From: Brevundimonas sp.
GTDB lineage: Bacteria > Pseudomonadota > Alphaproteobacteria > Caulobacterales > Caulobacteraceae
Reading direction: 5' to 3'
NCBI RefSeq assembly: GCF_030656255.1
Contig: NZ_JAUSOE010000078.1
Span: 1-64,000, forward strand
Length of the DNA stretch: 64,000 bases
Below are positions 1,495 to 45,703 of the stretch, in pieces. Every line of letters begins with the position of its first letter. Positions within the stretch are counted from its first letter, which is position 1. Made by a program: the position numbers and the translations under genes. The notes beneath the pieces are model-generated. The model searched no databases, had not been told where the DNA came from, and saw nothing but the letters and a program-made list of their open reading frames with translations.

Positions 1495-3108
1495 GTGCGA
1501 TTAATGAAACAAATGTCCGAAACCTCGTCTCGAAACGCCCATCTGCGGCAAGCGGCGACCCTACTCGCGGCGGGCGACCACAGGGGCGCGCACGCGTCCT
1601 GCCTTGCGGCGCTGCACAACGGCGAGTCTCAGGCCCAGGCCCTGTTTCTGCTGGCCCTGATCGCGGCGGACCATCGCAATCCGACCAAGGCGCTGGAACT
1701 GACGGACAGGGCGCTGGAGACGGAGCAAGATCACATGGGTGCAAGGGCGCAGCGCGCGCGGGCGCTTTTGGCCCTGCACCGTCACGACGAAGCGCGCGCC
1801 GAGGCCGAGGCGGCGGCCGCTTCGGATCCCGAGGACGGCCATGTCCTGGACACGCTGGGGGTCGTGCTGAGTCGGACGGGCGCCTATCAGGCGGCGGCGG
1901 CCCTGTTCCGCCGGGCGACGGCGCGGCGACCCGACCAGGCGGACTGGCAGTATAATCTCGGCGCCGCCCTGCAGTTCACGGGTGAGCTGGATGACGCCCG
2001 CCAGGCCTATCTGGCCGCGCTGAAGACGCGCCCTGACCACCATCGCGCCCTGTCTTCTCTCGTGTCCCTGTCGCGCCAGACAGAGGCGGACAATCAGATC
2101 GCGGCGCTGGAGGCCCTGTTCGACGACGCCGATCCGGACCCGGCCCGCCAGCAGCATCTGGGACACGCCCTGGCCAAGTCGTTCGAGGATATAGGAGACC
2201 ATCCGGCGGCCCTGTCCTGGCTGGTCCGCGCCAAGGCGGGGCGACGACGCACCTCGGCCTATGGGATCGACCGCGACCGGGCGCTGTTTGCGGCGGCCGC
2301 CGAGACCGCGAAACCCGCGATGGCCGGATACGATGATCCGTCTCCGCTGTTTATCGTAGGTCTGCCCCGTACGGGCACGACCTTGCTGGATCGGGTCCTG
2401 TCCAGCCATCCGGACATTGTTTCGGCCGGCGAACTTGGGGACTTCGCCCTGCTGGTGAAGCGGATGGCGGGTACGCCGTCGCCGCTGGTGCTGGACGTCG
2501 AGACCTTCCAAGCCGCCGATCGGCTGGATTTCGCCGCCCTGGGCCGGGCCTATGTCGAACGCTGCCGCGCGGCCGTCGAGGACGGCGCCGGTCTGACGGC
2601 GGCGCGGGTGATCGACAAGATGCCGCTGAACGTTCTCAACGTCGGCCTGATCCATCGCGCCCTGCCTAACGCGCGCATCCTGTGCCTGCGACGCCACCCG
2701 GTCGATAGCGCCCTATCCAACTATCGCCAGCTCTTCGCGACCGATTTTCCCTATTACGACTACGCTTTCGATCTGGCCGACGCGGGGCGTTACTACGCCC
2801 TGTTCGACCGGTTGGTCGCCCATTGGCGCGAGGCCCTGCCGGCGGATCGTTTCGCGGAAGTGGCTTATGAGGACATGGTCGAGGATCTGGAGGGTCAGAC
2901 CCGGCGCCTTCTCGGCTTCATCGGCTTGCCGTTCGATCCGGCCTGTCTGGCCTTCCATGAAAATCGGGCGGCGGTATCGACCGCCAGTTCGGTTCAGGTT
3001 CGCTCGCCGCTGTATTCCACCTCCATCGGCCGGTGGAAACGCTATGGCGACGGTCTCAGGCCCCTGCTCGACGCCTTGAGCGCCGAGGGCGTGGTCGTTC
3101 CAGACTAG
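1495..3108 (+). CDS. TPR-repeat sulfotransferase family protein
   Basis: 537-aa ORF; N-terminal TPR-like repeats, then [31 protein letters not shown] (PAPS-binding P-loop). The start could be GTG 1495 or ATG 1504/1513. Confidence 0.85.
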
Positions 3109-4244
3109 ACGTCGCTCTCCAGCGCCCCGCCCGCGACGCGGACGAACTGGGCGCGGCCGTCCAGGCCGGCGAACAGGCTGCGTTCGGTGCCGGTCATGAA
3201 GGCCTGGAGGTTCAGGGCGACGATCTCGTCGAACAGGGCGGCGCGACGAGCTTCGTCCAGGTGGGCGGGGGCCTCGTCCAGCAGAAGGACCGGGCGGGCG
3301 GCCCCGGCGGCGTCAGGGTGCGACAGGCGGCTGATCTGGGCCAGGATCAGGTTCAGGACCAGGGCCTTCTGTTCGCCGGACGAGCCCTCGGCGGCGGGGC
3401 GGTTCTTCTCGCGGTGAAGGGCGGTAAGGTCGGTGCGGTGCGGGCCGAACAGGGAGCGGCCGGCGGCGCCGTCGCGGGCGCGCGCCTTGGCCAGGCCTTC
3501 GCGGATGGCGGCGGCGATCTCGTCTTCTTCGGCGCCGTCGTCGGCCATTTGTTCGGCGGGACCGTCCAGACCCAGGTCGGCCTGGGGGAAGGGGCGGTCG
3601 CGGCGGGCGTCGATGGCGGCCTGGAGCGCGTGCAGGGCGGCGACGCGGGCCAGGGCCGCGCGGGCGCCGGCCTCGCCCAGCCGGGCCTCCAGGGCGTCCA
3701 GCCAGACGGGGTCGGCCTCGCGTCCGTCCTGGGCGTCGTTCAGCAGCCGCAGCCGCTCGCGCAGGGCCTTTTCGTAGGCGGAGACGGCGGCGGCGTGGTC
3801 GGGATCGGCGGCGAAGACCAGCCGGTCGAAGAACTTCAGCCGTTCGGCCCGGGCGTCGGAGAACAGCCGATCCTGTTCCGGAGTGGCCCAGACGGGCCGC
3901 AGATAATCGAGCAACCGCCCCGGCTGGGCTGTCTCGCCGTCGATGCGGACGATGCGCCGCGCCGCGCCCGCCGTCTGGACGCCGGTGCCCAGCCGCGTCT
4001 CGTCGTCCAGTTCGACCATGACGGCCCAGGCGCGGCCCACCGCCTCGCCGGGCTCGCGCCGCCCCATTTCGGCGGCGGTCGCGCCGCGCAGCCCCTTGCC
4101 GGGGGTCAGCAGGCTGACGGCCTCCAGCAGATTGGTCTTGCCCGCCCCGTTCGGGCCGTGAAGCACCACCGGGCCGGAGGCGAGCTCCAGCCGCGCGCTC
4201 GCATAGGAGCGAAAGTCGGTAAGGGTGAGGGAAATCAGGCTCAA
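3105..4244 (-). CDS. recF: DNA replication and repair protein RecF
   Basis: Walker [19 protein letters not shown]-terminal [11 protein letters not shown]; located downstream of dnaN. Start codon is TTG. Confidence 0.95.
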
Positions 4245-4249
4245 TCTAT

Positions 4250-4291
4250 CCGCTCATCCCGGCGAAAGCCGGGACCCAGTCCTTTCGCTCG
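4250..4291. repeat. Terminal inverted repeat, left copy (GIY-YIG cassette)
   Basis: CCGCTCATCCCGGCGAAAGCCGGGACCCAGTCCTTTCGCTCG. Confidence 0.9.
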
Positions 4292-4298
4292 GCACGAT

Positions 4299-4586
4299 CT
4301 AACCGAGCAGCGTCGGAAACAGATCCGCCCATGCCGGGTTCTTGCGTTCGATCAGTTCCAGCTTCCAGATCCGTTTCCATTCCTTGATCTGCCGTTCACG
4401 CACGAAGGCCGCATGACGCGTCTCGTGCACCTCGTACCAGACCAGAAGCGCGACGCCATATCTACGCGTGAAGCCGGGACGCAGCTTGTCGCGGTGTTCG
4501 GCGATCCGCTTGATCAGATCGTCGGTCGAGCCGGTATAGATCGTACCGTTTCGGCGGCTGGCGATGATGTAGGTGAAGAACGCCAA
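4299..4586 (-). CDS. GIY-YIG nuclease superfamily protein
   Basis: 95 aa: MAFFTYIIASRRNGTIYTGSTDDLIKRIAEHR...FVRERQIKEWKRIWKLELIERKNP; YII/YTG core and RERQIKEWKR motif. Confidence 0.9.
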   Translation of the reverse strand: MAFFTYIIASRRNGTIYTGSTDDLIKRIAEHRDKLRPGFTRRYGVALLVWYEVHETRHAAFVRERQIKEWKRIWKLELIERKNPAWADLFPTLLG

Positions 4587-4600
4587 GCCAGCCTCCGGTA

Positions 4601-4642
4601 CGAACGAAAGAACTGGGTCCCGGCTTTCGCCGGGATGAGCGG
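4601..4642. repeat. Terminal inverted repeat, right copy (GIY-YIG cassette)
   Basis: Reverse complement CCGCTCATCCCGGCGAAAGCCGGGACCCAGTTCTTTCGTTCG; differs from the left copy at two positions. Confidence 0.9.
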
Positions 4643-4653
4643 AAGACTCTTGC

Positions 4654-5772
4654 CTACACCCGCAACGGCATCAGCACATACTGCACGCCCGGATCGCCCG
4701 GATCGAGCACCAGCGTCGGCGAAGCCGGGTCGGCGAAGCGGAAGGCGGCGTTTTCGCCGGTGATCTGGCCGGCGACGTCAAGCAGGTAGCGGGCGTTGAA
4801 GCCGATCTCGAACGGCTCGTCGGAATAGCCGATCTCGACCTCCTCCTCGGCCTGACCGGCCTCCATGTTGCGGACGGTCAGTTTCACCCGATCGTTGTCG
4901 AAGGCCAGTTTCACCGACCGGCTCTTTTCGGCCGAGATGGTGGCGACGCGGTCGACGGCCTTGGCGAACAGGGCGTTGTCGATGTCGGCCTGTTTGTCAT
5001 TGCCCTTGGGAATGACGCGCAGATAGTCGGGGAAGGCGCCGTCGATGACCTTGGAGGTCAGGGACGCCTCGCCCATCTGGAAGCGGATCTTCTGGGCCGA
5101 GACGGTGACCTGGACCGGGCCGCCGGCGTCGTCCAGCAGGCGGCGGACCTGATCGATGGTCTTGCGTGGCACGATGACGCCGGGGCCGCCGGCCGCGCCT
5201 TCGGGCGCCGGGGTCTCGGCCAGGGCCAGGCGGTGGCCGTCGGTGGCCACGGCGCGCAGCAGGGCGACGCCGGCCTCGGCCACCGTGTGCAGGTACAGGC
5301 CGTTCAGATAATAGCGGGTCTCTTCGGTCGAGACGGCGAACCGGGTCTTGTCGATCAGCCGCGCCAGGTCTTCCTTGGGCATGACGTATGAGGCGCCGGC
5401 GCTGTCGGTGGACATGATCGGGAAGTCGCCCGCCGGCAGGACCGGCAGGTTGAAGCGCGACCGCCCGGCCGAAACCACCAGACGGGGATCGTCGCCCGAA
5501 TAGAGCAGCGACACCTCGGCGCCTTCCGGCAGTTTGCGCACGATTTCGTACAGGGTGTGGGCGGGGGCGGTGATCTGGCCCTCGACGTTCACCGTCGCCT
5601 CGGCCTCGTCCACCATCTCCATGTCCAGGTCGGTGGCCGCAAAGGCCAGCCGGTCCCGGCCTGCGCTGAGCAGGACATTGGACAGGATCGGGATGGTGTT
5701 TCGGCGTTCGACGACGCTCTGCACATGGCCCAGGGCCTTCAGGAGCGCGGATCGTTCGATGGTCAGTTGCAT
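4654..5772 (-). CDS. dnaN: DNA polymerase III subunit beta
   Basis: 372 aa MQLTIERSALLKALGHVQSVVERRNTIPILSNVLL...; C-term YVLMPLRV; sits between dnaA and recF. Confidence 0.97.
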   Translation of the reverse strand: MQLTIERSALLKALGHVQSVVERRNTIPILSNVLLSAGRDRLAFAATDLDMEMVDEAEATVNVEGQITAPAHTLYEIVRKLPEGAEVSLLYSGDDPRLVVSAGRSRFNLPVLPAGDFPIMSTDSAGASYVMPKEDLARLIDKTRFAVSTEETRYYLNGLYLHTVAEAGVALLRAVATDGHRLALAETPAPEGAAGGPGVIVPRKTIDQVRRLLDDAGGPVQVTVSAQKIRFQMGEASLTSKVIDGAFPDYLRVIPKGNDKQADIDNALFAKAVDRVATISAEKSRSVKLAFDNDRVKLTVRNMEAGQAEEEVEIGYSDEPFEIGFNARYLLDVAGQITGENAAFRFADPASPTLVLDPGDPGVQYVLMPLRV

Positions 5773-45575: not shown

Positions 45576-45703
45576 CCGCTCATCCCCGCGAAAGCCGGGA
45601 CCCAGTTCTTTGGGCGCGCGGCCTTGTGGCGCGTGTCAGGATTGTGGTCCAACGGCGGCGCCGAGCGAAAGCACTGGGTCCCGGCTTTCGCCGGGATGAG
45701 CGG
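45576..45703. mobile_element. 128-bp gene-less element sharing the GIY-YIG cassette TIRs (MITE/REPIN-like)
   Basis: Left CCGCTCATCCCCGCGAAAGCCGGGACCCAGTTCTTTGGGCG; right reverse complement CCGCTCATCCCGGCGAAAGCCGGGACCCAGTGCTTTCGCTCGG. Confidence 0.75.

Follow-up and report, generated by a model that had tools for sequence, protein, structure and literature searches.

The window, that is, the whole stretch of 64,000 nucleotides of Brevundimonas sp. DNA that was analysed, carries a small gene between dnaN and recF that is enclosed by inverted repeats. This gene (4299..4586, minus strand), taken from the open reading frame list, has a TTG start and encodes a predicted GIY-YIG nuclease of 95 amino acids. 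The left arm, a REP on the plus strand at 4250..4291 (CCGCTCATCCCGGCGAAAGCCGGGACCCAGTCCTTTCGCTCG), has its hairpin core at 4258-4273 and is of the type that we refer to as G-stem, with a GAAA loop; the right arm (4601..4642, minus strand, hairpin core 4619-4634) is its inverted copy. These 42-nt inverted repeats are identical at 40 of 42 positions, and the arms of the dnaN-recF unit are lengthened by one further T/A pair. The open reading frame leaves 7 nt to the left arm and 14 nt to the right arm. On the outer sides, the left arm lies 5 nt from the recF start codon at 4244 (recF, 3105..4244, minus strand; named from its sequence and its position near dnaN/dnaA), and the right arm lies 11 nt from the dnaN stop at 4654 (dnaN, 4654..5772, minus strand; with a DNA match in 100 of the 101 genomes of the genus). 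The coordinates, distances and arm identity given in an earlier note on this DNA all hold. Two features can be added to it: a second, gene-less pair in the window, which is 128 bp long, intergenic and REPIN-like (45576..45703, left arm with a mixed C/G stem), and a second GIY-YIG gene inside such a pair in the genome.

The hairpin core has four matches in the window against 0.37 expected, and none of 100 shuffles reached four. Since, in addition, none of 320 control spots had flanking repeats (see below), a chance origin of the window repeats was rejected. The fold computed for the short pair at 45576-45703 is a single long hairpin (-58.7 kcal/mol, z -9.7 relative to shuffles), and an Rfam search of the region gave no match.

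The window protein matched Pfam PF01541 (E=1.2e-15) and contains all the GIY-YIG catalytic-motif residues Y6, G14, Y17, G19, R27, H31 and E64; the active-site residues are intact in nearly all homologues as well. Its structure was modelled with a pLDDT of 94.7. The nearest solved folds are those of the UPF0213 GIY-YIG proteins (1zg2) and the branched-DNA nuclease Slx1 (4xlg), to which the identity is only 27% and 21%, respectively, while the best-matching named protein is that of B. intermedia (94%). An NCBIfam search with the window protein returned no family above cut-off, and no relative was found in phage records. A homing endonuclease would lie within an intron or intein of its target gene; this candidate was rejected since the GIY-YIG gene is intergenic, between dnaN and recF.

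Inverted repeat pairs in the genome and the genus

The earlier note had suggested counting copies of the 42-nt arms, and pattern searches revealed that these do recur throughout the genome. The 16-nt hairpin core, with at most one mismatch allowed, had 13 matches genome-wide and its reversed-pattern control had none, while the 30-nt full pattern was present in 14 forward and 15 reverse copies. Together the copies make up 15 inverted pairs, counting one partner with an indel (on contig C104). Thirteen of these pairs contain no gene and measure 120-130 bp, and an alignment of their interiors across sites was not possible. The other two carry a gene, which in both cases is GIY-YIG: the window copy has the stem CCCGGC-GAAA-GCCGGG ('G-stem'), and the pair at C170:2603-2975 has the stem CCCCGC-GAAA-GCGGGG ('C-stem'). 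Among the short pairs, three are of the G-stem type, the one at 45576-45703 is mixed, and the remainder are C-stem or C-stem-like. Forward and reverse repeat counts were also about equal across the 101 genomes of the genus, where control counts were zero. The unit is the inverted pair and not the single repeat. Stem positions covary among repeat variants, with 31 cells changed on both sides, a number that none of 500 shuffles reached; in view of these compensatory changes, selection acts on the hairpin structure.

Two peculiarities of the pairs were observed. In most of the short pairs in Brevundimonas, the sequences just inside the two arms differ, one arm continuing with CTTTGGGCG and the other with CTTTCG, in either orientation (for example at 45576-45703). 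Furthermore, a 273-bp repeat pair in a related genome (G008:C1:758219-758491, L333) contains nested palindromic DNA in place of a gene.

The second GIY-YIG copy of the genome (G000:C170:2653-2931, L128) has a proline at the catalytic R27. This position is an arginine in 48 of 49 Brevundimonas homologues. The copy may be inactive through the loss of R27, even though its C-stem repeats are the commoner ones in the genome. A more distant copy (G000:C100:8918-9193, L019), with 54% identity, has another palindrome on its flanks, CGTCATCCTCGGGCTTGACCCGAGGATC, which suggests that the two form a third enzyme-repeat pair in this genome.

Association of the repeats with GIY-YIG genes

Inverted repeats (score of at least 16) flank 56 of 80 GIY-YIG loci in relatives from the alpha-, beta-, gamma- and delta-proteobacteria and other phyla, against none of 320 control spots on the same contigs; about 30% of these 80 distant loci have no strong flanking repeat. 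When REPs were defined by structure (stem 8-9, loop 4-5, CCA-like tail), CGTC-type REPs were found on both sides of 41 of the 80 genes and on one side of another 22, compared with 0 and 6 of 312 controls, and REP density near the GIY-YIG genes was 36-fold above that in the rest of the same loci. A generic pattern revealed the REP in all 20 diverse genomes searched, mostly in near-equal forward and reverse numbers and with zero control matches.

According to the earlier note, the link between gene and repeat would be coincidental if the repeat were absent elsewhere, or equally frequent in genomes lacking the gene. The repeat does occur elsewhere, and it is rarer in Brevundimonas genomes without a close GIY-YIG gene (median of 6 repeats, ten genomes with none) than in those with one (median of 28, never zero; Mann-Whitney p 1e-9, a test that ignores relatedness). 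Exceptions were found in both directions, with repeat-rich genomes that have no close GIY-YIG match (G002, 59 repeats; G088, 67; G068, 49; G045, 40) and one with a close gene and only 2 repeats (G063). The link is not a coincidence.

The repeat variant also follows the enzyme clade. The copies at dnaN-recF group on a single, moderately supported branch (86/92) of a tree built from 49 Brevundimonas proteins. Of the 46 readable copies, all 19 at dnaN-recF have the G-stem and all 27 others the C-stem, which amounts to one change on the tree, and wherever both arms were readable their stem type was equal. The three paralogues of G007 have the loops GAC, CAC and GAG, each identical on both its arms, and all 39 repeats listed for G026 are of the two variants that go with its two close GIY-YIG genes. 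The median genome-wide share of G-stems was 1.0 in genomes with the dnaN-recF clade only, 0.53 in genomes with both clades and 0.15 in genomes with the C clade only (p=2.6e-5 for dnaN-recF clade only versus C clade only, by a rank test that ignores phylogeny). Here, too, there were exceptions, as many G-stem copies (G084, G093) or some C-stem copies (G044, G036) were present without a matching gene in hand. Enzyme and repeat are very probably cognate partners.

These associations bear on two other explanations. As the repeats are hairpins and the short pair folds very stably, they might be only transcription terminators or RNA stability hairpins that are unrelated to the enzyme. Their enrichment beside one gene family across phyla, the matching of the variants and the lack of an Rfam match argue against this, and we consider it highly unlikely. 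The short pairs could also be MITEs of another transposase or be moved by a RAYT, with the GIY-YIG gene captured by chance; terminal inverted repeats and a fixed length are indeed MITE-like. However, both gene-carrying pairs of the genome hold GIY-YIG, no transposase lies inside any of its 15 pairs, and the stem type tracks the GIY-YIG clade. A search for the Y1/RAYT domain (PF01797) found none in this genome or in 98 of the 101 genomes of the genus, the domain being present in the other three, and RAYT-driven repeats were rejected on this ground. The pairs of the genome that were read did not reveal a parent IS sharing their ends. This explanation is just as improbable as that of terminators.

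Residence of the gene and turnover of the pairs

A comparison of flanks located GIY-YIG copies at four conserved places, common to 20, 11, 6 and 6 loci, the largest of which is dnaN-recF, where the junction is occupied by the same gene clade in 20 species. The gene is therefore a resident, and the GIY-YIG genes are vertically inherited at fixed sites. A reading of the TIR-gene-TIR unit of the earlier note as a transposon, freshly inserted at dnaN-recF or still active, was rejected because 20 species have the gene at this site and the other three sites show similar conservation. In the close relatives G090 and G011, dnaN-recF contains other DNA, so that losses of the gene are likely. Within the genus the dnaN-recF junction (window 4245-4653) is variable, with unrelated inserts of ~500-1100 bp or GCCACTCGCCACTCG arrays in other species.

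In Devosia sp. 66-14, the GIY-YIG gene lies between two whole pairs (REPINs), and 20 sampled genomic copies have an equal length of 82 bp and an alignable interior. This shared length and interior are consistent with what copying would leave, which raises the question of true REPIN mobilisation by the GIY-YIG enzyme. In that case the pair would replicate, and nicking at both arms would release the element or copy it to new intergenic sites. Besides the likeness of the Devosia copies at different sites, several observations favour this: pairs and not singles are the unit, a Brevundimonas genome may hold anything from 0 to about 64 of them, and relatives lack some elements of the genome studied here at the matching place. 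However, the gene itself is stationary, and the interiors of the Brevundimonas pairs cannot be aligned between sites. When the flanks of nine pairs were compared with those in eight relatives, neither a clean empty site nor a target duplication could be made out, the matching junctions being too diverged. In addition, GIY-YIG enzymes are not known to have strand-transfer activity. Mobilisation by such an enzyme is plausible, and as an account of the whole system it is one that we entertain only tentatively.

The two arms of an element resemble each other more closely than arms belonging to separate elements of one genome do (over 43 elements, 22 mismatches versus a shuffled mean of 54.7, p 2e-4). 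In one orthologous pair (C108 in this genome, C3:178257 in G008), the interior was kept while both arms had switched stem type in step. Both observations suggest arm-to-arm conversion or else a selection that one enzyme exerts on the two arms together. A single 32-bp palindrome is all that is left of one pair in G020, a collapse for which a deletion between short direct repeats could account; similar collapses of REPINs were mentioned by Bertels and Rainey 2011 (PMC3116915).

Relation to known REP systems and a proposed mechanism

As in the REPIN/RAYT system (Bertels and Rainey 2011, PMC3116915), inverted REP doublets with a fixed spacing are the unit and also lie beside the enzyme gene, the enzyme is single-copy and distinctive for each repeat type, and a pair can collapse into a long palindrome (here in G020). 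The RAYT enzyme, however, is an HUH/Y1 transposase and its REPs have a GTAG tag, whereas the Brevundimonas enzyme is a GIY-YIG nuclease and the arms lack GTAG and begin with CCGCTC. In its working, the GIY-YIG system resembles RAYT/REPIN: a resident enzyme gene is enclosed by its own repeats, and non-autonomous pairs lie at other places. It does not belong to REPIN/RAYT, since no Y1 domain was found in this genome and the GTAG tag is absent. The idea of the earlier note of a domesticated REP-associated unit, analogous to RAYT/REPIN with a GIY-YIG enzyme, agrees well with the genome-wide inverted pairs, the GIY-YIG association and the clade-tracking variants. Unlike for RAYT, no covalent chemistry is known to us for the GIY-YIG system.

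In 2013, a survey distinguished two groups of bacterial REPs, GTAG repeats with their RAYT transposases and CGTC repeats, to which no enzyme could be assigned (PMC3733652). Of the CGTC repeats, Di Nocera et al. 2013 stated that they 'apparently lack a dedicated transposase', and they identified the Neisseria dRS3 repeats as CGTC-1 REPs (PMC3733652). A 2025 REP survey mentions neither a transposase nor a nuclease (PMC12306157), and, among the papers that our literature search covered, none was found that links GIY-YIG nucleases to REP, REPIN, dRS3 or CGTC repeats. With the CGTC-REP superfamily (PMC3733652) the Brevundimonas repeats share a stem of 8-9 bp, a loop of 4-5 nt, a CCA tail, a mostly head-to-head dimeric arrangement and an alpha-proteobacterial bias, but their tag is CCGCTC rather than CGTC and A-C is a frequent first pair of their stem. 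In the window, the stem is preceded by the four bases GCTC, the superfamily tags being CGTC, TGTC and CCTC; a CGTC-type tag is present in Azospirillum, Neisseria, Rhizobium and Sinorhizobium. CGTC-type REPs are found next to GIY-YIG genes in Azospirillum lipoferum, Sinorhizobium, Rhizobium, Micavibrio and Neisseria. By these sequence features, the Brevundimonas repeats are best placed with the CGTC-REP superfamily. On pSymB of Sinorhizobium meliloti (L251), the GIY-YIG gene is bordered by CCTC-tagged palindromes with a 9-bp stem and by a second palindrome, GCGCCGCGTCTGCGGCGC, a mosaic reminiscent of the rhizobial intergenic mosaic elements.

The homologue from Neisseria gonorrhoeae (53% identical) lies inside a dRS3 array with 16 copies in 5.3 kb. 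Among its plasmids, PLSDB lists two N. gonorrhoeae records that, at 2.17 Mb, are the size of whole chromosomes; the one that was read, NZ_CP119140.1 (L250), carries a dRS3 array. In a 2025 paper on Neisseria, the 'Ssn' enzymes are reported to be GIY-YIG nucleases that cleave ssDNA site-specifically, have cognate repeats (NTS) and modulate natural transformation; the gonococcal protein in the dRS3 array may be Ssn. What the Brevundimonas system would have in common with Ssn is a small single-domain GIY-YIG protein with an intact active site, cognate repeats and a Neisseria homologue in a dRS3 array, and the nucleases are probably related. The pair/REPIN architecture, the several enzyme-repeat pairs per genome and the arm homogenisation would go beyond Ssn.

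This relationship opens the possibility of genome marking or control of DNA uptake, in which an Ssn-type ssDNA nuclease would cut transforming or replicating ssDNA at REPs, and the repeats would be address tags and not mobile. The catalytic residues are conserved, and the Ssn/NTS work is said to have such a nuclease acting on natural transformation. Moreover, the array around the gonococcal homologue is a dense one of dRS3 repeats, which are CGTC-1 REPs (PMC3733652). Left unexplained are the fixed-length inverted pairs, the presence of the gene inside such a pair and the alignable interiors in Devosia; we put the chance of this explanation slightly below even.

The explanation that we favour, and consider likely, is an enzyme-plus-repeat system in which the resident gene of a small GIY-YIG nuclease lies within hairpin REPs, for which it is specific and which are otherwise spread as gene-less REPINs. 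In such a system, the enzyme would recognise the REP hairpin as single-stranded or extruded (cruciform) DNA and hydrolyse it near the tag, at replication forks or on incoming transforming DNA. Repair of the cuts would use the other arm or another copy as its source and would thereby homogenise the arms; it may occasionally seed a new pair, perhaps spreading pairs. Enzymes of the GIY-YIG superfamily hydrolyse DNA without a covalent intermediate, and because of this any spread would proceed via host replication and repair and not by classical transposition. Of these steps, cleavage of the hairpin or of ssDNA by the enzyme is rather probable, while an enzyme-driven spread of pairs is possible but doubtful. 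The GIY-YIG nuclease is probably the missing partner of CGTC-REPs in Proteobacteria and some other phyla. That GIY-YIG nucleases are the dedicated enzymes of CGTC-REPs across bacteria, and both maintain REPINs and drive their spread by cutting REP hairpins hydrolytically, is a speculative extension that we advance with reserve.

Brevundimonas offers cognate and non-cognate enzyme-repeat pairs in one genome, one stem base pair apart, which makes specificity and mobilisation directly testable. If the Ssn work is as reported, enzyme-repeat pairing is known in kind, and the REPIN architecture, the parallel cognate pairs and the arm homogenisation would be the addition made here. Should the GIY-YIG nuclease indeed be the missing partner, the dRS3 arrays of Neisseria and the alpha-proteobacterial REPs would be joined under one enzyme family. 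Hydrolytic cutting of REP hairpins, if true, would be a chemistry unlike that of every known REP or transposon system.
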